Shown here piece by piece: positions 5,564 through 21,002 of a DNA stretch of 64,000 nucleotides. Position 1 is the stretch's first letter, and each line of letters opens with the position of its first letter. The notes below the pieces were generated by a model, which worked only from the letters and a program-made list of their open reading frames with translations, made no database searches and was not told where the DNA came from. The DNA is from Gammaproteobacteria bacterium (GTDB taxonomy: Bacteria > Pseudomonadota > Gammaproteobacteria > JAKEHO01): the NCBI GenBank assembly GCA_027296625.1, contig JAPUIX010000029.1, positions 1 to 64,000 on the forward strand, given 5' to 3'. A program made the translations under genes and the position numbers.

Positions 5564-5826
5564 CTCTGCGAAAGACAATTGAGATAACGTCGCAAGATAC
5601 TTCTTACACGAGCAATCTACATCGGGGCTAGCGCAGCGAACCAAGCTTATGCATTCGCCCTTTTGGCAGCGATGGTGATGGAGGATTGAGAGGTAAGTTC
5701 AGCCAGACAAAGAACCAATATGACAAATTACAGTCAAAATTCTTTAAATCGTCCTTTATAATCCGCTACATTAACACGATGATTTCGACTACCGAACTCC
5801 CCATTTTGATTGACCCAAATAACATC
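5564..5826. other. AT-rich intergenic region upstream of the DUF2092 gene
   Basis: Nothing beyond a possible promoter zone is seen. An open frame continuous with the DUF2092 gene extends up to a TTG at 5686, but this stretch (many Lys, Gln and Asn codons) has no signal-peptide or family character and is probably non-coding. Confidence 0.35.
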
Positions 5827-6630
5827 ATGACGCGGACGTTGGTCTCCCAGCATACGCAATTTATGCGCAACCGACTCCTAGTGTGTATTGCGATCGTCTG
5901 GACTATGCTCGTCAGCGCACCGACCTATAGCGCAGACGCCGCGAGCGCTTCTGCAGTTAAACCGGAAGCCGATCAGTTGCTCAGACAAATGAGTGACTAT
6001 TTGATTTCCCTTGATCAATTTAGTGTGCGAGCTGAAAACACAGAAGACGTGCTTCTCCCCTCAGGGCAGAAACTACAGATGGGCTATTTAGTTGAACTCT
6101 TTGTGCAACGTCCAGATAGACTTCGCGCCAATGTCAGAGGCGACAGAGACAACCAAGATCTCTTCTATGATGGCGAGACCATCACGCTCTTGGACACGGA
6201 TCTCAACTACTATGCCACCATCGCAGCGCCCCCCGAGCTTGACGCGGCGCTCGATTATGCTATGGAAGCCTTTAACCTCAGGGCGCCCTTATCGGATCTC
6301 GTCTACACCAACGCCTATGCGGCATTGACGAAAAACACTGAATCCGGATTTTACGTCGGAATGAGCGAGATTCGAGGCATCGAATGTCATCATCTGGCAT
6401 TTGTCCAACATGATATCGATTGGCAAGTATGGATTGAAAACAGCGAGACACCACTACCCAGAAAGCTCGTTATCACCGACAAATGGGTAACGGGTGCCCC
6501 GCAATTTGTGGCTATCCTGTCGGATTGGAATGTGTCTCCGCACTTGCAGGATAAGCTGTTTACCTTTGTCGAACCGGACAAGGGCGAAAAGATCGAGTTT
6601 TTGCCAGTCGATCAAACCCGGATGCCGTGA
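5827..6630 (+). CDS. DUF2092 family secreted protein
   Basis: This predicted periplasmic protein has a signal peptide (hydrophobic core LLVCIAIVWTMLVSA, cleavage near PTYSADA). The mature part matches the DUF2092 pattern: DQLLRQMSDYLISLDQFSVRAE, FVQRPDRLRANVRGD, DLFYDGETITLLD, ECHHLAFVQHDIDWQVWIE. The fold is probably LolA/LolB-like, so lipid binding is possible, but the function is unknown. ATG 5827 gives 267 residues; ATGs at 5779 and 5863 are alternatives, none with a clear ribosome site. The next gene starts 21 bp downstream and is probably co-transcribed. Confidence 0.85.
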   Translation: MTRTLVSQHTQFMRNRLLVCIAIVWTMLVSAPTYSADAASASAVKPEADQLLRQMSDYLISLDQFSVRAENTEDVLLPSGQKLQMGYLVELFVQRPDRLRANVRGDRDNQDLFYDGETITLLDTDLNYYATIAAPPELDAALDYAMEAFNLRAPLSDLVYTNAYAALTKNTESGFYVGMSEIRGIECHHLAFVQHDIDWQVWIENSETPLPRKLVITDKWVTGAPQFVAILSDWNVSPHLQDKLFTFVEPDKGEKIEFLPVDQTRMP

Positions 6631-6651
6631 GCTATCACTGAGCCCCGCATC

Positions 6652-7023
6652 ATGAAACGCATAAAGTCAAAACCATCAGTAGCCTTATCTTTCATGTCGG
6701 CGTTGCTGCCTGGGCTATTGATTGGACTTGTCGGACTTACGGGGAACGATGTCCTGGTGAAAGACGCCCAAGCCGTGGTGGGCCGCCCAGCCTCTCCGGG
6801 CAGTGTAGCGGGCATTCATCGCCGTGAGACCCGGCGAACCGTTCGCGCTACAAGCTATTATGGCGGCGCCACCGTCACAACGGGTTCGTCAGTATATACA
6901 CTGCCCCCGGGTTGCGTCGCGGTGATCCATAACGCGGCAACATACTATTACTGCGACGGGATTTATTACCAACCCTACTACCAGGGCAATCAATTAGTGT
7001 ACGTGCCCGTCGAAGCGCCCTGA
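6652..7023 (+). CDS. Small secreted Tyr-rich protein, DUF2092-linked
   Basis: This 123-residue protein has a basic N-terminus and a hydrophobic segment (ALLPGLLIGLVGLTG), then a Gly/Ser region and a C-terminal motif with clustered Tyr (ATYYYCDGIYYQPYYQGN). That motif resembles short periplasmic or outer-membrane-associated proteins of the DUF6515 type. No catalytic motif is visible. It lies 21 bp after the DUF2092 gene on the same strand and converges with the ion-channel gene. Function unknown. Confidence 0.75.
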   Translation: MKRIKSKPSVALSFMSALLPGLLIGLVGLTGNDVLVKDAQAVVGRPASPGSVAGIHRRETRRTVRATSYYGGATVTTGSSVYTLPPGCVAVIHNAATYYYCDGIYYQPYYQGNQLVYVPVEAP

Positions 7024-7040: not shown

Positions 7041-8135
7041 CTACAACCAAAAAGCTGAAACAATCACCAAAGCGAAGACCAGGACGAAAAGCCAACGGGA
7101 CCAATGATTCATTCTGACGGCAAGCGACTCGTTTCCCAGCTGGGTCAGCCTGGTAGTGAGGACGACCTCCCCTAATGCTAAGAAAACCAAAATGGTGGAG
7201 CCGATCATGAATTCATCGACCCGCGTGAGATAGGAGATTTGAGGTAGGAGCTGTGAGAACCGGAATTGAAAGAAGATCAGCGTCAGTATCGCTGCCGTGG
7301 ACATACCAACCCTGGGACCAATTTCCGACGGAACGATCCAAAAGACTGTCCAGGCCATAAAAACGATCAACCCCAGCGGAACGATAAGCTTCCATACGTA
7401 GTAAGGGCTATCGCGCCGTGCTTGCAACTCATAGGTGAAGCGCGGGATGTTATGCGCCAATGGAGGCAGTTGGAATGCGTCCACTCGGGTGGTAGGGGCG
7501 CCGATCAACCAGTTAGTAACGGAAAAACGCCCGGCACGGCCCGTCATCGTTGGATCAAGCACGAACCAAAGGTCTTCCGGACTATAAAAAATAGAAATGA
7601 TCTCGATGAGTAGCGCTTGCGTGTCCCACGGGACATCCTTGAAATGCATGGGAGACGCGAGCTCACCGTAGTACCGCTGTTCATAGGCGACATTTCCCTC
7701 GGAATCGACCGTAACGGTATCTTCCAGGCGCTTTGTAAGGATTCGTTGGTTGCGGATCCGCGCGACTGGATCCCACACCTCGCCCAGACTGATCTCGCAG
7801 CCTTCAAGGGACATGCCCAAGCTTTCGGCAGAAAGCCGAGGGTCAATCCACTTTAGTTCAATATGAAAATCGGCCGTATAGGCCTGCGACCTGTCCTCAA
7901 CAGCCACAACGTCGAGCATGTAGATACCGACGCCAACCTCTGTTGCCGTACCCGGCGGGTCGGGCCGTGACTCCCTCAAACTGGGAGGCACCGAGCAATC
8001 TGCCACCGGATTATTTGAGACGACTTCGGCAGCCAATACACACGGCGCAGTGGCGAAAAACATCAGCACCAGCCAGACCGCCCAAAATGCCCATAATGAG
8101 ATCGAGAAATTCCCTATGAAGCAAACCTGTTTCAT
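7041..8135 (-). CDS. Pentameric ligand-gated ion channel (prokaryotic Cys-loop-type)
   Basis: The protein of about 364 residues has a signal peptide, a beta-sandwich ligand-binding domain and four C-terminal transmembrane helices. The region equivalent to the eukaryotic Cys-loop reads MHFKDVPWDTQALLIEI, without the disulfide, as in GLIC and ELIC. It continues through RRDSPYYVWKLIVPLG into M1, a pore helix M2 (GPRVGMSTAAILTLIFFQF), M3 (EFMIGSTILVFLALGEVVL) and M4 at the extreme C-terminus. A Glu just before M2 (PSEIGPRV) may favour cations (inference). The frame opens at a TTG (8177), but ATG 8135 has an AAGG ribosome site 10 nt upstream. It is the last gene of the five-gene minus-strand operon. 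Confidence 0.9.
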   Translation of the reverse strand: MKQVCFIGNFSISLWAFWAVWLVLMFFATAPCVLAAEVVSNNPVADCSVPPSLRESRPDPPGTATEVGVGIYMLDVVAVEDRSQAYTADFHIELKWIDPRLSAESLGMSLEGCEISLGEVWDPVARIRNQRILTKRLEDTVTVDSEGNVAYEQRYYGELASPMHFKDVPWDTQALLIEIISIFYSPEDLWFVLDPTMTGRAGRFSVTNWLIGAPTTRVDAFQLPPLAHNIPRFTYELQARRDSPYYVWKLIVPLGLIVFMAWTVFWIVPSEIGPRVGMSTAAILTLIFFQFRFSQLLPQISYLTRVDEFMIGSTILVFLALGEVVLTTRLTQLGNESLAVRMNHWSRWLFVLVFALVIVSAFWL

Positions 8136-8160
8136 TCCGATCATGCCTTGAAAGAACCAA

Positions 8161-9075
8161 TCATTTTGAAAAGACAAGCCGGAGCCTGTCTGCGTTTTGC
8201 AGCATGACGGTCAGAAAGTTGCCATCGGCTGGCGTATTGCCCTGGGGGATAAACACCACGCTGTTGATGCCAAGCGATTTAAGTGTGGCCGCGGACTCAG
8301 GCTCCGGCGCGCCCTCCCAGATCATCCATCTGGCGGGATGTTCCCTAAGTATGGCCTGCAGTTCAAGCCACTGTTCGTCAGTCGGCACCTCGTGTGGTTC
8401 CCAGTGAACGCTTTTAATATCCAATCCGTATCGCCTGGCAAAGTACTGGTACACTGGATGGGAAGCAACCAGCGGCTCGTGCATATTACTCACGACGATG
8501 CCCTTGAGGTCCCGGTCAAGGCGTAAGAGGTCATCTTCCAAGGCCTTGTAATTGCTTTCGAATATATCACGCAGTGCAGGGCGCTTCCGGCTCATTGCGT
8601 CGGCAATGGCCCTCGCCTGGTCCGCCGCCAGATGAAAATCAAGCCAGGTCGTCGGCGCCACACCAGTGTCTGCGTGTTCGCCACCGGGACCGTGGGTATG
8701 CATTACAAGATTAGCGAGGGGAATGTACTGGTCCTTAAAGCTCGCAGAGGTATCAACCAGCTTTGAGCGCGGCAACGTGACCTTGTCGATCCATTTCGCG
8801 TAGTTTGCGCCATTCAAAATAATCAAGTCGGCTCTCTGGTACTCGGCAATGACCTCAACCCCTGGATTCCAGAAGGCCGGGTCAACATCGGGTGGAACCG
8901 GAAACGCCACCGTGGCATGCGCCTCGGCGATGCGTTGGGCGAAGTATTGGAGGGGATAATTCACCACGTAGATCGTGAGCTTACCTGACACATCATCCTC
9001 AGACATCGCAATAGCCGGGAGACCGAGGATCATCACTGCCAAAAAACATAAACGCGCCATAACTTTCATAACCAC
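8161..9075 (-). CDS. TroA/ZnuA-fold substrate-binding protein with altered metal ligands
   Basis: This 304-residue periplasmic binding protein of cluster A-I has a signal peptide and no lipobox. Recognisable TroA-fold blocks are YPLQYFAQRIA, ADLIILNGANYAKWI, a His-rich loop HTHGPGGEHADTG, and SHPVYQYFARRYGL. Unusually, the positions of the usual zinc-ligand histidines read VDPAFWNP (family DPHxxxP) and APTTWLDF (family DPHxWLDP). Two canonical ligands therefore appear replaced by Ala and Thr, while the third His (SHPVYQYF) is kept. The start is GTG 9075 with GGAAA 8 nt upstream. It follows an FtsX-like permease, not a ZnuB-type one, so its ligand and partner are unclear. Confidence 0.85.
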   Translation of the reverse strand: MVMKVMARLCFLAVMILGLPAIAMSEDDVSGKLTIYVVNYPLQYFAQRIAEAHATVAFPVPPDVDPAFWNPGVEVIAEYQRADLIILNGANYAKWIDKVTLPRSKLVDTSASFKDQYIPLANLVMHTHGPGGEHADTGVAPTTWLDFHLAADQARAIADAMSRKRPALRDIFESNYKALEDDLLRLDRDLKGIVVSNMHEPLVASHPVYQYFARRYGLDIKSVHWEPHEVPTDEQWLELQAILREHPARWMIWEGAPEPESAATLKSLGINSVVFIPQGNTPADGNFLTVMLQNADRLRLVFSK

Positions 9076-9130
9076 GGCGCAGGTTTCCTATAATCCATCA
9101 AATGTCCTCTTCACGTTGGCATCATCGAGA

Positions 9131-10312
9131 CTAACGAATAAACAGCGCCCGGACGAGGTCGTTGGCAAACTGACTAAGAACCGCCATCATGGCTAAACTA
9201 AGGATCCCGCTGATGAGGACGATGATAAAGATCTCCGCACCCAAGAGCCGGGCAATCGTCATGCGGCTGCAACCGAGCTTGAAGATGGTGCTGATCTCGC
9301 GCTGACGCAGCCTGAGCGACAAGGCGAAAACGAGAACGACAGCGAGAACAGTTGCCAATCCGACCAATCCAATTACCGCATCCAGGACGTTTTTGATACG
9401 AAATATGTTTTGCAGCAGCTCATCAATGACATCCTTCGGTTGCGCGATTTGATTGATGGCATCAGTCAATAGATAACGGCCACGGAGGATTGTGCCTGCC
9501 TTTGCGTCACGGGGTAATGCAATGACCGCGCTGATTGGATAGTGCAAAGTATTGCCGTGAAAGTGAAACGAGTCTAGATTCGCTTCTGTGATCTCGGTGT
9601 ACTGCTCAAGCTTGGCGTTGGCCACCACATTCGTCTCCGTGCGGCTCAAAATCACAGTTGAATCTTGCGTTTTTGTTATGTCTTCGTGGCCATGGCCCAG
9701 GCCTTCGATGACCCAGGCGGTTTTTAGATCGACAAATATGGCCAGATCATCGGACGTATGGGCCTTCTCAAGCACACCAGCGACGCGCATCTTCAAGGGA
9801 TAAACACCCGCGAGATCAAAGAGATTGTCAGGGGATGAGATCAAACTGTCTCCCGGAGCAAGGCCCAAGCGCTTGGCCACCGTCGCACCGACGACGCAAT
9901 CGCCCAGCACAGCCAGCCCCCGACCCTCAGCCACCTTCAAACTGCGAAAATCAAAGTAGTCCAAGGTCGTTCCAACAATCGCATGCCCTCTCGCACGAAA
10001 CCGCACATAGACAGGCACGGCTAGGGCCAGGTCCGAATCCATCAGGGCTTGGGAGTCCGCCATCGAGATTAATTCCGGGACCTCGTCCCCGAAATACAGT
10101 GTATTCATCACCAGATCCAGCGCGCTGCCCTTGGCGCCGACGATTAGCGGTGTAGAAACGGCTCGGGAGAGAAGCTGCTGCTCGCTTTCAGTCAGTAGGC
10201 GTTGCAATCCCAGCGGCAAAAAGGCGATCAACGTAATGCACGCGATCAGGATAACAGTCTTTAGCTTATTAAAGGTAACGTACTTCCATGCGATATAGAA
10301 ACTTTCGATCAC
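9131..10312 (-). CDS. FtsX/MacB-like ABC transporter permease
   Basis: A 393-residue inner-membrane protein. One N-terminal helix (VILIACITLIAFLPLG) leads into a large periplasmic domain of about 250 residues (GEGRGL-type MacB periplasmic core: FRSLKVAEGRGLAVLGDCVVG) and then an FtsX-type region with TM segments near 310-332 and 355-377 joined by REISTIFKLGCSRMTIARLL, the coupling helix. Only three hydrophobic helices are visible, whereas MacB-type permeases have four. It overlaps the ATPase gene by 4 bp (ATGA), so translation is coupled. Such transporters usually do mechanotransmission or lipoprotein/peptide export rather than import. Confidence 0.88.
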   Translation of the reverse strand: MIESFYIAWKYVTFNKLKTVILIACITLIAFLPLGLQRLLTESEQQLLSRAVSTPLIVGAKGSALDLVMNTLYFGDEVPELISMADSQALMDSDLALAVPVYVRFRARGHAIVGTTLDYFDFRSLKVAEGRGLAVLGDCVVGATVAKRLGLAPGDSLISSPDNLFDLAGVYPLKMRVAGVLEKAHTSDDLAIFVDLKTAWVIEGLGHGHEDITKTQDSTVILSRTETNVVANAKLEQYTEITEANLDSFHFHGNTLHYPISAVIALPRDAKAGTILRGRYLLTDAINQIAQPKDVIDELLQNIFRIKNVLDAVIGLVGLATVLAVVLVFALSLRLRQREISTIFKLGCSRMTIARLLGAEIFIIVLISGILSLAMMAVLSQFANDLVRALFIR

Positions 10313-10977
10313 GTTGCATCTCCGTCACGAAAGTCTTCGAAATCGATTACCCGGTCGAAGCGCTTGAGCAAGTCATGATCGTGGGTTACCGCCAAGAGCG
10401 TCGCATTGTGCTCGTCGACGCTACGAAACAACAGATCGAGAATGCGGCTCTTGTTTGTTGGATCTAGATTCCCGGTTGCTTCATCTGCAAGGATCACTTT
10501 CGGCCAGGGTAAGAGCGCCCGGCAGATCGCGGCACGTTGCTTTTCGCCTTGTGAGAGATCGTTGACAAGGCGCTTGAGCTTGTTGCCAATACCCATGCTC
10601 TCGGCAAGCATCGCCGCACGAGCGCGCACCTCCCCATCGAGCATAAGGGCGCCGGTAATGCGGTAAGGATGAAGGATATTATCGAGCACGTTGAGATAGT
10701 CCAGGAGTTCAAAATCCTGAAATACAAATCCGATGTTTGTAATCCGAAAATTACGACGCTCAGAATCCGTGAGTGCATCCACTCGCACGTCACCCACCTC
10801 CACCGTCCCACCGGCGGGCTGCAGGATACCGGCAATAAGGTTCAACAGTGTTGTCTTGCCCGAGCCACTGGGGCCAATCACAGCAATTTTTTCGCCCTCG
10901 GCAACAGCGAACTCAGGCACACGGAGCTGAAACTCGCCGTCCGGATAGCGAAACGCGAGACCACTGATGTTAATCAT
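10309..10977 (-). CDS. ABC transporter ATP-binding protein, MacB/LolD type
   Basis: This 222-residue cytosolic ATPase has Walker A GPSGSGKTT (about residue 36), the Q-loop in IGFVFQDFELL, the signature LSQGEKQRAAICRALL, Walker B VILADEATGNLD and the H-switch AVTHDHDLL. The EATGNLD form is typical of the LolD/MacB/FtsE branch and agrees with the FtsX-like permease encoded immediately downstream (4-bp overlap). It would energise the permease at the inner membrane. It starts at ATG 10977, 77 bp after the 612-residue protein gene. Confidence 0.93.
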   Translation of the reverse strand: MINISGLAFRYPDGEFQLRVPEFAVAEGEKIAVIGPSGSGKTTLLNLIAGILQPAGGTVEVGDVRVDALTDSERRNFRITNIGFVFQDFELLDYLNVLDNILHPYRITGALMLDGEVRARAAMLAESMGIGNKLKRLVNDLSQGEKQRAAICRALLPWPKVILADEATGNLDPTNKSRILDLLFRSVDEHNATLLAVTHDHDLLKRFDRVIDFEDFRDGDAT

Positions 10978-11054
10978 TGGTCCAGCATCCCCAGTCTAGA
11001 GTGTGGCGGTTGCCGGAAAGAAAGCTTAAAGACACCAAATGCTGAACTCTAGAC

Positions 11055-12893
11055 CTATTTACTTGCTGTCTGTGCATAAGGGTCGATCCGTTTTTCTTCG
11101 AGCAGCTCAAGCTCGGTGATCTTCCACACGCCGTCAACAGGCTCGACGATGATATTGGCGCGGTACTCGTTCTTACGCCCATGCACATGTCCCCAGTGAC
11201 CGACCGTCCCGAACGCCGTCCAGGTAGACTTGAACGATAAGGCCAAGGGGCGTTCGGGGTGCGGCTCAACGGCGACGTCCAGGATCTCGATCTCTTTTAC
11301 TTTGGCCTGCGCCCCGCCGGCCTTTTGTACGGCGAGCGATTTTCTGTTCTGCAAATATACATCGGCCAGCAGATCACCGCTCACGCTGACCGCAAGCTTG
11401 TCATAGACATCCTCTTCCCGGCGAAAATCGAACGCGCGGTACACGTTCTTGAGCAGGCTTTGTAAGACCAACGTCGCCTCTGCCTTGCTTAGCGCCGGGG
11501 CCATGATTGCGGGCTTGCCGATCGAGGCGTGCATGTACGGCGACAGCACCAGACTCGTCCCGAGCAGCAGTGCACCAACGACAACTTGAAAGCGGATCGA
11601 TCTCGATTGACGCCGTCGCGCCTTGATCTGCCATAACACCGGCACGAGCAGGAGCAGTCCCACTGCACTCCCTATCGGCACGCTAAACTTGGTGAGGGAG
11701 TCCGGCACGATCACCTCAGCGACCTGCGGCGGCTTGTAGTTTTTCAAGAAGTTGGTCCACCTATGTACGTTGTCATCGGGCGTCACGAAAGATAGCAATG
11801 GGCCGGCCGGATCGATCGCGGTGGCCGGCACGCGCTGGACCTGATCGGTAAAGAGTTCCCAATCGACGGTAACCTCCTTTGGCAACGCGTCGGTAAGATA
11901 GGCGAGCTTTACCCCCACGATGGCGGTCGAGAGCTCAAGACGTTCAGGCTGCTCCAGTAACTGAATGCCGGTCAATGCTACCTTTACATAGTCGGCCCGA
12001 TCGAGGATCGGGCGAAGCGATTCGCCATCAACCAAAACGGTATTCTTATCTAACATGAACTCGCCGACCCGTTTCTTCAGCGGCTCCCACTCGTCGACCT
12101 CGATGTACTCGTCCCCGCGGAGGCCAAGATCCATCCATTCCTCCAAGTCCTTCACGCGTGTGAGAATCTCGTGGCGCACCTCGTAAGGTTCGACATAGAG
12201 ATAAGACATCAGCGCCGACTTGTGGTGACGCTTGAGATTCGGATTGCCAAACTTCGAGTACCAGGGATCTTCCCAGTCAAGCGCCAGACGCGCGGGAGCA
12301 CCGAGATAGCGAAAGTCGATAATGGGGACGGCCTTGTGGTAGGCGATAAAACCGATAGTGACCAAGGCGCGGCCTTCCTTGTCCAGAGGCGGGATGATGG
12401 TCAGCGTCTTCGGCTTCTTTTTCGGAAACGGGTAGACGACCTCCGCGTAGAGCACTCGTTTATCCTTTGGCGCTTCCGGCATACGTCGGCGTGTGTACGG
12501 ATTGATCATGCCCGCGAAAGGTGACTGGCGATCGGTACGCAGGCGTGGCTCGACGAGTTGCAGCTGCGCCTCTAACTTTTCACCGGTATCCGTGACGAAT
12601 TGAAATTTTTCGGAGGCAAAGATTTTCAACCGCTCTTCCGGCGCCGGGCGCTGCACCTTGGAATCTTTGACCCAGTCGTCCGGAATCAGCTCTTCGAAGA
12701 ATTCGAGATCGCCGATGTGCACCTCTAGCACCAGCCTGACGTGGTCATCCAGAACGTAGATCTCGACGATGTTGGGCGCGGTCTCGGCGCCTGTCAGGTT
12801 AATCCAGTCGGCGCGCGCCGATCCGATGCTGGTGACTACGGCAAGCAGGGCAGCTGCCCAGAGCGCTCGCGCTAAGTCCGCAACATTACTCAT
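11055..12893 (-). CDS. Membrane-anchored periplasmic protein, unknown family, first gene of the pLGIC operon
   Basis: A 612-residue protein with a signal peptide (LWAAALLAVVTSIGSARA) and a mature N-terminus DWINLTGAETAPNIVEIYV. A long soluble region follows, then two hydrophobic helices at about residues 415-435 and 440-457 (VPIGSAVGLLLLVPVLW and VVVGALLLGTSLVL), and a C-terminal soluble domain of about 150 residues (VYDKLAVSVSGDLLADVYLQ, DGVWKITELELLEEKRI). The repeated beta-strand-like patterns suggest a sensory or structural role, but I do not recognise the family. The frame opens earlier (13082), but the signal peptide fixes ATG 12893. A truncated N-terminal copy lies at 17559-17837, so this gene has been duplicated. 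It probably heads the operon with the ABC pair, the binding protein and the channel. Confidence 0.8.
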   Translation of the reverse strand: MSNVADLARALWAAALLAVVTSIGSARADWINLTGAETAPNIVEIYVLDDHVRLVLEVHIGDLEFFEELIPDDWVKDSKVQRPAPEERLKIFASEKFQFVTDTGEKLEAQLQLVEPRLRTDRQSPFAGMINPYTRRRMPEAPKDKRVLYAEVVYPFPKKKPKTLTIIPPLDKEGRALVTIGFIAYHKAVPIIDFRYLGAPARLALDWEDPWYSKFGNPNLKRHHKSALMSYLYVEPYEVRHEILTRVKDLEEWMDLGLRGDEYIEVDEWEPLKKRVGEFMLDKNTVLVDGESLRPILDRADYVKVALTGIQLLEQPERLELSTAIVGVKLAYLTDALPKEVTVDWELFTDQVQRVPATAIDPAGPLLSFVTPDDNVHRWTNFLKNYKPPQVAEVIVPDSLTKFSVPIGSAVGLLLLVPVLWQIKARRRQSRSIRFQVVVGALLLGTSLVLSPYMHASIGKPAIMAPALSKAEATLVLQSLLKNVYRAFDFRREEDVYDKLAVSVSGDLLADVYLQNRKSLAVQKAGGAQAKVKEIEILDVAVEPHPERPLALSFKSTWTAFGTVGHWGHVHGRKNEYRANIIVEPVDGVWKITELELLEEKRIDPYAQTASK

Positions 12894-13148: not shown

Positions 13149-13584
13149 TCACTGCAGGTTGTACTTTTTCTTGAATGCGTCAACCAGGTCGCGCTGCGCC
13201 TCTTCGGCTTCGAGATTCCACTTGCCCGCCTTCATCGCATCGCTCAACGGATCCGGTACTCCCTTTATCGGAGCGGGTGGCTTATTTAGCCCAGGCACCG
13301 ACCAGGCCTGGTCAGGCGAAACTGCCATGCGCTCGACGATCTTGTCCTTTGTGATATTCCAGACCATGTTGTCCGAGGCCATGGACAAAGGTCCTGAATA
13401 CGTCTGTCGCACGCCATCATAGATCCCGTAACGGGTGTTCTCTTCATTAAAGAAATGATATGCGATGGCATGGCGGGGTTTGATGGCGCTCATTACCTTG
13501 CCAAACGCTGGCGGGGAGGTGTGTAACTCCGTGCCTACACCGAGCGCCGATCGCCGCGGCTCTAAACGAGGTTTGCTTCTTCAT
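13149..13584 (-). pseudogene. Internally deleted MBL-fold hydrolase gene (C-terminal remnant)
   Basis: The readable C-terminal part (GVGTELHTSPPAFGKVMSAIKPRHAIAYHFFNEE... DNMVWNITKDKIVERM) is a paralogue of the intact hydrolase at 15993-17282 (NVGTQIHTPPPAFGKVMSMVKPRMAIAYHFFND). Just upstream, a good ribosome site (GGGAGGATCC) and an ATG at 13584 open a different frame, MKKQTSFRAAAIGA, which looks like a signal-peptide start. The most economical reading is that the original start was fused to the last third of the gene by a deletion that removed the metal-binding HxHxDH region and left the two parts out of frame. It cannot encode an active enzyme. The last about 50 residues diverge from the paralogue. 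Confidence 0.8.
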
Positions 13585-15992: not shown

Positions 15993-17282
15993 ATGGGAAA
16001 ATTTATAAGTTCAAAATTTTTGTTTTTGGCAATGGTGGCTGTCGTGGTAGTAGCTGTGGCAGGTGTTTACATGAAAGGACGGTATGACGAACGTGCTGGC
16101 AAAGAATCCCCACTCATGGGACAGGCGGTCGAGGCCAATGACAAACCCACCGTGTCACCGACGAAAGCCAGGGGAGATCGTGGCGCATACTATCCTAATA
16201 CGGAAGATCTGGCGGCCGACGAGATGCGCATCATTTCTTGCGGAACGGGTATGCCCAATCAGCGCCCCTCGCAGGCAGCTTCATGCTGGCTGGTCGAACT
16301 GGGGAACGGTGACAAGTTCCTTTTCGATATCGGTACGGCTTCGGCGGATAACCTTGCGGCGTTGCTCATCCCCGCCGATTACCTCGACAAGATCTTCCTG
16401 AGCCATTTGCATACCGATCATTTCGGCGACTTTGGTGCGATATTTGTCGGCGGGTTGATAAACGGTCGGACCGTCCCATTGCGCGCGTGGGGGCCAAGCA
16501 GTTCGAAGCCCGAATGGGGCACCAAATACTCCCTGGAACACTGGCGGAAAGCGCTCAGCTGGGACGTTGATGGGAGAGCCGGTCGCCTGCCCGCGTCCGG
16601 GCAGGAACTAGAGATTAACGAGTTCGATTATAAGGGCGAGAATCAGATCGTATACCAGGACAATGGGGTGACCATCCGCTCCTGGCCCGCCATACACGTT
16701 ATCGATGGACCGGTCAGCTACAGCCTCGAGTGGAATGGCCTGAAGTTCGTCTTCGGCGGTGACACGTACCCCAACAAATGGTTCGTGGAATACGCCAAGG
16801 ATGCCGACGTTGTAATCCACGAATGTTTCATTACGGTCCCGGACCTGGTTGCGAAGATGAACTTCCCGGTGGCGAGAGCTTTGAATGTCGGCACACAGAT
16901 TCACACGCCACCGCCGGCCTTCGGTAAGGTCATGAGCATGGTAAAGCCTCGTATGGCGATCGCTTATCACTTCTTCAATGACTCCGACACCTCTCCAAAA
17001 ATTTTGGAGGGAATCAAATCGACCTATGACGGTCCGCTAACCTTGGCCGATGACATGATGGTTTGGAACGTGACCAAGGACAAAATCATCGTGCGAGAAG
17101 TGGTATTTCAAGAGGATGTCTGGGCGCCCCCACTGGTCAGGAAGGTCCCGGTTGACCGTAGCATCATGTTAACGGAATCGGACTGGGTCAGGCAGCACTC
17201 ATTGGATATGGGTGACATCATCCAAAAGATCTACGATCGGGCAAATAAGCTATATGGTACGAACGAAAAGCCGGGTTTTTAG
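15993..17282 (+). CDS. Exported MBL-fold metallo-hydrolase (GntH-like)
   Basis: This 429-residue protein has an N-terminal signal anchor (FLFLAMVAVVVVAVAGVYM) and a metallo-beta-lactamase fold. The di-zinc motif SHLHTDHFGDFG lies at about residues 137-149, with the later ligands plausible in FVFGGDTYPNKW, VVIHECF and AIAYHFF. The overall pattern resembles proteins often annotated as GntH-like MBL hydrolases; the substrate is unknown. A ribosome site AAGGAGAACTTGTT precedes the ATG. A broken paralogue lies at 13149-13584 and a truncated sulfatase just upstream, so the locus once held several MBL-type genes. Confidence 0.88.
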   Translation: MGKFISSKFLFLAMVAVVVVAVAGVYMKGRYDERAGKESPLMGQAVEANDKPTVSPTKARGDRGAYYPNTEDLAADEMRIISCGTGMPNQRPSQAASCWLVELGNGDKFLFDIGTASADNLAALLIPADYLDKIFLSHLHTDHFGDFGAIFVGGLINGRTVPLRAWGPSSSKPEWGTKYSLEHWRKALSWDVDGRAGRLPASGQELEINEFDYKGENQIVYQDNGVTIRSWPAIHVIDGPVSYSLEWNGLKFVFGGDTYPNKWFVEYAKDADVVIHECFITVPDLVAKMNFPVARALNVGTQIHTPPPAFGKVMSMVKPRMAIAYHFFNDSDTSPKILEGIKSTYDGPLTLADDMMVWNVTKDKIIVREVVFQEDVWAPPLVRKVPVDRSIMLTESDWVRQHSLDMGDIIQKIYDRANKLYGTNEKPGF

Positions 17283-17558: not shown

Positions 17559-17837
17559 TTATCTCCAGGCGGGCAAGAAGCACACTCGCCATACTTTTAA
17601 CGTAGGTCGCTGCACATTGAGATCTTTTAGCCAGTCATCCGGTATCAATTCCTCAAAGGTCTCTAGGTCACCAATGTAAACCTGCAACACCAGTTTGACT
17701 CGGTTATCGAGGACGTAGATCTCAGCGATATTCGGCCAGGTCTCGGCACCGGTGAGATTGATCCAGTCGGCATTGGCGGCGAACATCCAAAGCCAAGACG
17801 CCAGAAACGCAACGGTGCGAACGAAACGTGATGGCAC
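17559..17837 (-). pseudogene. N-terminal fragment of a second copy of the 612-residue protein
   Basis: The frame encodes a signal peptide and then DWINLTGAETWPNIAEIYVLD and IGDLETFEELIPDDW, closely matching the mature N-terminus encoded at 11055-12893 (DWINLTGAETAPNIVEIYVLD). Homology ends after VQRP (about residue 78), and the frame stops 14 codons later. About 85 percent of the protein is missing. Confidence 0.82.
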
Positions 17838-17984: not shown

Positions 17985-18392
17985 TTACACGGCAAAAACA
18001 TAGTTCAACCAGGTGTACATGCGAATGATGACTTTGCGAATAATGCGAATGACCTTGGCCTTATCGCTATAGATAGCGGCCGCACCATGGACCCCGGCTG
18101 GCAGACGCAGGTCCGACACGCCATCTAGCGTGAGCCGCACCGCAAACCGGCCCGCGGGCTGTTGCTGGGTAAACTCCAGCAGGTTACCACTCGGGGCCAG
18201 TTGTCCCTGTCCGGTCGCCCAGATAACGTTGTCCACCGTGGCACGAAAGATCTTGCCTGGCTGATCATCCAGCGCGACTTCAGCGATGTCTCCGGGTTTG
18301 ATGTAGCGAAGCACATTCTGTGTAAATGTCGCGATCACACAAGCCCAGTCATTGTCCTCCCCTAGAAAGGTAATTCCGATCAGCGTGAGTTC
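17985..18392 (-). pseudogene. C-terminal fragment of an HlyD/YibH-type membrane fusion protein
   Basis: The frame reads DNDWACVIATFTQNVLRYIKPGD, then PGKIFRATVDNVIWATGQGQL and RFAVRLTLDG, the barrel and C-terminal region of HlyD-family inner-membrane fusion proteins. The N-terminal transmembrane helix and coiled-coil are absent, and no start codon with a ribosome site is present (GTG 18338 is internal). Its upstream edge abuts the 3' end of the 18400-18867 gene. No efflux partner gene is adjacent. Confidence 0.6.
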
Positions 18393-20168: not shown

Positions 20169-21002
20169 CTACCATCGGATGTTCCATGCCAACAACGGCC
20201 CGTGCATCCAGATGTCCCAGACAAACGCGGTAGGCCCGCTCCCGCTGCTGTAGTCCTGGTATAGGCCACGGTAGCCAGCCAGGATATCCATATCAAGCCC
20301 CCATCCAACATAGCGATAATCAAAGAGACCCGAGGCGTTGAACGTGAAGTCCGATCCGACGCCGAATCCGCCGATATCGGTCCTTAGGATAAACGCCCAG
20401 CGCTCGCTGAGGTCAAAGGTCCCCCGTCCACCGAAGAAGGGGTCAGTCCAAGACTGATTACCGTTAACGTTAGGCGCCGGTGGGACCTTAAAGGTTATTT
20501 TCTGGTCGATGGAGGTATACCGACCACCGGCGAGGAGCTCCAACGTCCAGCCCCGATCGCCGTCGACGCGCCCATAAGGCCAGCGTCCGGCACGATATAA
20601 CCCACCAAACTCCACCAGCCAAATCTCGGTCTCCAGATCACCAATGATCGCCGGCACGATCGGTCCCGGCGGTACCGCCAATACCTGATTATCAAAACCC
20701 AACTTAACATAGGTCCCGTCCAGGAAGCCTCCCCATCTTTCTCTCCACCATGCCTCGCCGTGCAGCGTCAACGCAAACACCGAATCGGCGTTACTGACAG
20801 TGTCGATGAAACTCTCGTCGATGCTGGTCGAAATTCCCCCTACGGTCGCATCGCCTCGCAAGCTAACAGCCCAGATGTACGGGGCGATGCTGAAATCCCA
20901 GTCACTGGACTTGGCAGCCGTCTCCTCAGCAAACGCAACGGGGGCATTGAACCCAAAGACCGCCAGCGTCATCGCGATGACGGCGATTCTTCTAACTTTC
21001 AA
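20169..21002 (-). CDS. Outer-membrane beta-barrel protein
   Basis: A 277-residue protein with a signal peptide ending AFAEE, then WDFSIAPYIWAVSLRGDATVGG and repeated amphipathic strands ending in an aromatic-rich C-terminal strand. DUF-type small barrels share the IAPYIW start. The start is a TTG at 21002, because GGGGAGGGCAAG precedes it ideally and the signal peptide begins there; the upstream ATG frame would place the ribosome site inside the gene. Function unknown. Confidence 0.75.
   Translation of the reverse strand: MKVRRIAVIAMTLAVFGFNAPVAFAEETAAKSSDWDFSIAPYIWAVSLRGDATVGGISTSIDESFIDTVSNADSVFALTLHGEAWWRERWGGFLDGTYVKLGFDNQVLAVPPGPIVPAIIGDLETEIWLVEFGGLYRAGRWPYGRVDGDRGWTLELLAGGRYTSIDQKITFKVPPAPNVNGNQSWTDPFFGGRGTFDLSERWAFILRTDIGGFGVGSDFTFNASGLFDYRYVGWGLDMDILAGYRGLYQDYSSGSGPTAFVWDIWMHGPLLAWNIRW

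Follow-up and report, generated by a model that had tools for sequence, protein, structure and literature searches.

The usual job of MacB-superfamily permeases is export or mechanical work. ZrgABCDE of Vibrio cholerae, in which a periplasmic zinc-binding protein accompanies an ATPase and a MacB-like permease, is required for growth under zinc limitation if ZnuA is missing (PMC9820375). Binding-protein genes have also been found beside bacterial pentameric ligand-gated ion channels (pLGICs): a 2004 survey predicted that some channels share operons with PBP-II binding-protein genes (PMC549065). Here, we describe five adjoining genes that encode an ABC system with a MacB-type permease, a TroA-fold binding protein and a pLGIC subunit, within a 64,000-nucleotide stretch of gammaproteobacterial DNA (the window). 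Four of these genes form a widespread ATP-powered envelope system, apparently one not yet characterised, and ZrgABCDE is the closest known design to it. No description of a four-gene system of TroA and MacB/LolD type was found in open-access papers. The first-pass annotation of this DNA had started from the premise that MacB/FtsX permeases normally use no binding proteins; ZrgABCDE is a published exception (PMC9820375).

Layout of the five-gene cluster

The five genes lie on the minus strand at 7041-12893, and open reading frames and domain searches confirmed their order, spacing and domains as first annotated. The cluster begins with a 612-aa membrane-anchored periplasmic protein, here called HYP (11055-12893), taken from the list of open reading frames and unassigned to Pfam or NCBIfam. 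Its open frame extends to 13082, and the start at 12893 is backed by homologues. After a gap of 77 bp comes a LolD/FtsE-like ABC ATPase of 222 aa (10309-10977; PF00005, 1.1e-29), which overlaps by 4 bp the gene of a MacB/FtsX-type permease of 393 aa (9131-10312; MacB_PCD, 6.4e-10). A TroA-fold binding protein of 304 aa (8161-9075; PF01297 (ZnuA), 2.4e-39) follows after ∼55-61 bp. The best NCBIfam model of the ATPase is LolD (2.3e-48), with 164.6 bits against an equivalog cut-off of 307.75; FtsE (161.4 of 264.85 bits) and MacB (114.7 of 966) likewise stay under their equivalog cut-offs. The FtsX C-terminal domain of the permease, at 0.013, is below the cut-off.

The last gene of the cluster (7041-8177) encodes a 378-aa pLGIC subunit. 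Ligand-binding (LBD) and transmembrane (TM) domains both exceed their Pfam gathering scores (Neur_chan_LBD, PF02931, 1.5e-11, 44.6 bits; Neur_chan_memb, PF02932, 3.7e-10, 40.9 bits), and the protein matches ELIC, GLIC and other pLGIC structures; by sequence, it is a pLGIC. If translation starts at the TTG at 8177, the gene overlaps the binding-protein gene by 17 bp; an ATG at 8144 or 8135 would instead leave a gap of 16-25 bp. Between the five genes there is neither a strand change nor a credible terminator, and they are likely co-transcribed in the window, to judge from the sequence. A scan of the cluster for promoter-like and terminator-like sites was uninformative, as their frequency was not above that of shuffles.

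Several features surround the cluster. A DUF2092 and DUF6515 gene pair adjoins it at 5686-7023, and the pair recurs at three other loci (L046, L069 and L094). An MBL-fold hydrolase at 15993-17282 scores 472.6 bits against the NCBIfam GntH_guanitoxin cut-off of 333; MBL proteins of this family recur near the operon in 23 loci, and the name probably reflects a broad family. The upstream neighbourhood also survives as a second or rearranged copy, of which four pieces remain between 13152 and 18350: the C-terminal part of an MBL-fold protein (13152-13562, minus strand), a full but inverted MBL gene (16068-17270, plus strand), an N-terminal fragment of a second HYP with about 55-66% identity to relatives (17598-17831, minus strand) and a C-terminal HlyD-like fragment (17997-18350, minus strand). 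Further along, the minus-strand gene at 20172-20996 belongs to an outer-membrane-like family also seen near the system in L040, L045, L059, L061, L070 and L081. Judged by eye, reading frames resembling this family lie beside the channel genes at L165 and at L170; L170 comes from a genome without the ABC system.

Distribution of the system and linkage of the channel

One genome per species was scanned, which gave 355 permease relatives, and neighbourhoods were taken from the best 80 of these 355 loci. Among these 80, HYP, the LolD-like ATPase, the MacB/FtsX-type permease and the TroA-fold binding protein stay together in many phyla, which by submitter labels include Pseudomonadota, Desulfobacterota, Myxococcota, Nitrospinota, Tectimicrobiota and Cyanobacteriota. 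The ATPase adjoins the permease in nearly all of these loci, HYP precedes the ATPase in most, and the binding-protein gene lies directly 3′ of the permease in most of those with sufficient flank. A few loci, such as L092 and L093, have no binding-protein gene in its expected place. An initial sample of 94 relatives had held two orthologous permeases, each in a locus that ends at a contig edge: L021, ordered HYP-lipid kinase-ATPase-permease-binding protein, and L022, ordered ATPase-permease. A YegS-type lipid kinase gene lies within or near the operon in a few relatives (3893-4822 of L021; L089). Within the class sample, the permease was present at E <= 1e-40 in 7 of 369 genomes, the window's own counted.

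The wider neighbourhood varies. In Methylococcales, the HYP homologue is often a few genes off, next to CopC, to a conserved small protein and to a two-component pair for heavy metals whose response regulator and sensor kinase score above NCBIfam cut-offs; CopC and the heavy-metal regulators are nearby in Methylococcales only. Outer-membrane genes near the system differ from locus to locus (FadL type, TonB receptor), and no MacA/TolC-type partner is conserved across the neighbourhoods of the best 80 loci.

The first-pass annotation read all five genes as one machine, in which the channel or the permease may receive a ligand from the binding protein, so that the flux of ions is coupled to signalling or export driven by ATP. 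The channel gene is indeed tightly packed behind the binding-protein gene, and operons of channels with PBP-II genes are known (PMC549065). A channel also stands near the system in another lineage: at L047, it lies three genes downstream, after HdeD-like and Omp85-family genes, and a relative of that locus, L165, repeats the arrangement. The window channel, the sole pLGIC of its genome (a 2.42-Mb bin, 97.7% complete), shares one supported subclade of the channel tree with that of L047, and this subclade also holds channels unlinked to the system; the permease tree sets the window and L047 apart with modest support. Given the density of channels in carrier genomes, one or more linked channels would arise by chance with a probability of ∼0.01 for the 3.5 kb downstream, a span picked after the data were seen, and ∼0.06 for whole loci. 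The linkage is thus suggestive of more than chance at most.

Against a single machine stands the rarity of the arrangement. Only L047 carries a linked channel among the best 80 of 355 loci, with its sister L165 outside that count, and in 42 loci the sequence continues for 3 kb or more past the binding protein. The closest relatives of the window whose flanks are long enough (L030 and L053) have no linked channel, and none lies in the 9 kb downstream at L059, a sister of L047 with 85% identity between the two permeases. Any pLGIC at all is found in 11 of 50 carrier genomes, nearly always on another contig and among unrelated neighbours, and the other 39 have none. Viewed from the channel side, 18 of the 369 class genomes have a pLGIC, and the 17 others besides the window's hold no orthologue of its permease (0/17), only distant FtsX relatives. 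A conserved five-gene unit is rejected on the count of one linked channel in 80 sampled loci, and a single five-gene machine is distinctly improbable.

Because the channel is linked in only one of 80 loci and other carriers mostly lack one or hold it elsewhere, the operon is best described as a system of four genes joined by a channel that is specific to this lineage, a rare neighbour at this locus and not a conserved part of the system. The unusual ABC system proposed by the first-pass annotation stands, with its four genes kept together over many phyla, but the channel as an integral partner does not. That annotation had also held that a near-absence of channel and ABC genes together elsewhere would mark a chance adjacency; such an absence is largely what was found for the channel, and it does not hold for the other four genes. 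Glutamate in M2 is typical of cation-selective channels. M2 of the window channel reads GPRVG at −2′ to 2′, without Glu; its subclade is mixed, and we make no claim on charge selectivity.

Candidate metal sites and regulation

Characterised zinc-binding proteins have a fixed cleft site and a flexible His-rich loop. The nearest PDB relatives of the binding protein are the zinc-binding AdcA and YcdH, and AdcA binds zinc through three His and a Glu (PMC7858048). Aligned with AdcA, the first His becomes A67 (Ala in 42 and Val in 3 of 45 relatives) and the second T142 (Thr in 44/45), while the third His (H206, 44/45) and the Glu (E254, 45/45) are kept. Two of the four ligands of the canonical site are thereby replaced. 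The loop H126-x-H128-G-x-x-G-x-H134-x-H136 (HxHGxxGxHxH), by comparison, keeps three of its His in 45/45 and the fourth in 44/45. Conservation is therefore reversed relative to characterised zinc proteins, with the loop conserved and the cleft site changed. The window itself is the lone exception at the fourth loop His (D136), and it has Gln (Q278) at a position where 34 of 45 binding proteins have Cys (C278). This copy may thus be partly altered, whether by drift or by a change of function, and it comes from the same lineage that acquired the channel.

Invariant His motifs also occur in the periplasmic domain of the permease, GLGH207GH209 and FH250FH252G (HGH and HFH). H250 and H252 are present in 79/79 sequences independently of the search pattern; H207 and H209 are also present in 79/79, but both lie inside the scan pattern.

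For HYP, an AF2 model was built from 41 sequences (mean pLDDT 84.8; 93.2 for domain 1 modelled alone). The predicted layout starts with a signal peptide, after which come a pair of Ang/ZrgA-like beta domains in tandem (about 34-215 and 222-385). Transmembrane helices at about 407-428 and 434-450 precede an NTF2-like domain (about 462-605) with an invariant H566-W-G-H569-x-H571 motif (HWGHxH), whose three His are kept in 41/41 sequences. Foldseek searches of the PDB with this model, one low-quality long alignment set aside, ranked ZrgA, PA4063 and Cu-bound Ang-1 best, then NTF2-like domains, with ARC6/PARC6 also among the matches. The modelled domain 1 alone matched Ang-1 first (9gce, E 1.3e-4), then PA4063/ZrgA. 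ZrgA has itself been reported as the closest structural match of Ang-1 (PMC12537917). The likeness of HYP to ZrgA is at fold level only (TM about 0.4-0.6): no sequence-level homology to ZrgA or PDB chains was found, and PF10986 (ZrgA) has no match in HYP, its 41 aligned relatives or its own genome. The strand-strand-helices-strand pattern of domain 1 recurs in residues 222-385 of the model, and two ZrgA/Ang-like domains in tandem are likely. This reading rests on model topology, because a profile comparison for internal duplication gave only a weak in-register match (7% probability, P 0.005).

These features bear on a second explanation, that the four genes are an export, lipoprotein or envelope-stress machine of MacB/LolCDE type whose TroA-fold protein is a structural adaptor no longer carrying metal. 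The superfamily of the permease and ATPase (MacB/LolD/FtsE), the loss of canonical zinc ligands, the lack of a Zur box described below and the varied outer-membrane genes nearby would all suit such a machine. Yet metal handling is the better match for the invariant His motifs in all three periplasmic parts and for the ZrgA/Ang-like fold of HYP, a conserved partner of MacA/TolC type is missing and the ATPase falls far under the LolD cut-off. We consider this explanation unlikely.

Vibrio hangzhouensis holds both Zrg and the four-gene system; their permeases are homologous (2.7e-15), as are their ATPases. Motif searches found Zur boxes upstream of two loci: the Zrg operon of V. hangzhouensis, where the core is perfect, and the znu locus in the window's genome, where there are two mismatches. 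The same searches found none at the four-gene system in the window or in V. hangzhouensis, and no enrichment in relatives. ZrgABCDE and canonical znu thus have a Zur box, whereas the four-gene system is without one, which argues against a simple zinc-starvation importer. A plain zinc importer, in which another ZnuA serves a Zrg-type permease when zinc is limiting, would accord with the TroA fold nearest to AdcA and YcdH and with the Zrg precedent (PMC9820375). The family-wide replacement of two of four zinc ligands speaks against it together with the missing box, and we regard it as quite improbable.

We lean modestly towards a reading in which the four genes encode a Zrg-like system of the envelope that is powered by ATP and handles a transition metal; the channel is a lineage-specific addition to it. 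The soluble TroA-fold protein would capture metal at a site moved from the canonical cleft to the conserved His loop, and the membrane-tethered HYP, with its ZrgA/Ang-like and NTF2-like domains, would be a second periplasmic metal-binding part. Both would hand metal to the His-bearing periplasmic domain of the MacB-type permease, driven by the LolD-like ATPase. In favour of this reading count the joint conservation of the four genes, the homology to Zrg, the fold matches of HYP, the conserved His motifs, the heavy-metal genes of Methylococcales and the separate znu cluster with its Zur box; against it count the restriction of the ZrgA likeness to fold level, the altered loop in the window, the usual work of MacB-type permeases, the loci without a binding-protein gene and the confinement of CopC to Methylococcales. 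Import, by analogy with Zrg, is our default guess for direction. The metal may be zinc, but we give at least equal odds to copper or to some other metal that lies outside the regulon of zinc starvation; the task would be to capture and transfer a metal in the periplasm, perhaps copper. The channel would have joined the four-gene system sporadically, and is probably co-transcribed with it in the window. A metal-gated channel coupled to a metal ABC system, with the binding protein or HYP controlling its access to metal and its flux reporting or balancing transfer by the permease, strikes us as very doubtful.

If the Zrg-like reading is true, MacB-type metal ABC systems come in a second architecture, carried by hundreds of uncultured and some cultured bacteria. 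This architecture would combine a TroA-fold protein, its metal site rebuilt round a His loop, with tethered ZrgA/Ang-like proteins that form a new family. Such a system would also offer a test of how a MacB-superfamily permease, usually engaged in mechanical work or export, can move metal. The channel bears weakly so far on the open question of bacterial pLGIC function.

Comparison with described systems

Compared with ZnuABC and other cluster A-I systems (ZnuA, AdcA, TroA), the window binding protein shares the PF01297 fold, the His-rich loop, the third His and the acidic ligand, but its first and second His ligands are replaced. Its partner permease is of MacB/FtsX rather than ZnuB type and its ATPase of LolD type; no ZnuB/ZnuC-type genes stand beside it, and the same genome has a separate canonical cluster of a Fur-family regulator, ZnuA, ZnuC and ZnuB. 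The ATPase and permease superfamily is common to MacAB-TolC, LolCDE and FtsEX, but here there is no MacA/TolC partner, scores lie below the LolD and FtsE cut-offs, and a binding protein is present.

Like GLIC, ELIC and DeCLIC, the window channel has full LBD and TM domains. As in the pLGIC-PBP operons (PMC549065), a binding-protein gene is nearby; in the window, it is instead of TroA type and part of an ABC system, and the linkage is sporadic.

The best structural match of HYP domain 1 is the Ang-1 domain of HupE/UreJ-2 permeases (PMC12537917), likewise a periplasmic metal-capturing domain with a membrane tether, as HYP may be. HYP is without the HupE/UreJ permease domain, and it shows no clear counterpart of the N-terminal His that is conserved in Ang-1. 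ZrgA is a small soluble DUF2796 protein, whereas the ZrgA-like part of HYP would be tandem, membrane-tethered and fused to an NTF2-like domain. The four-gene operon holds no ZrgA (PF10986) gene and no ZrgE-like (DUF3299) gene, and has an extra TroA-fold protein. What it shares with ZrgABCDE, and with PA4063-PA4066 of Pseudomonas, is the plan of a periplasmic protein that binds metal, putatively so here, with a LolD-like ATPase and a 4-TM MacB-like permease, which in this system adjoin a PF01297 protein.
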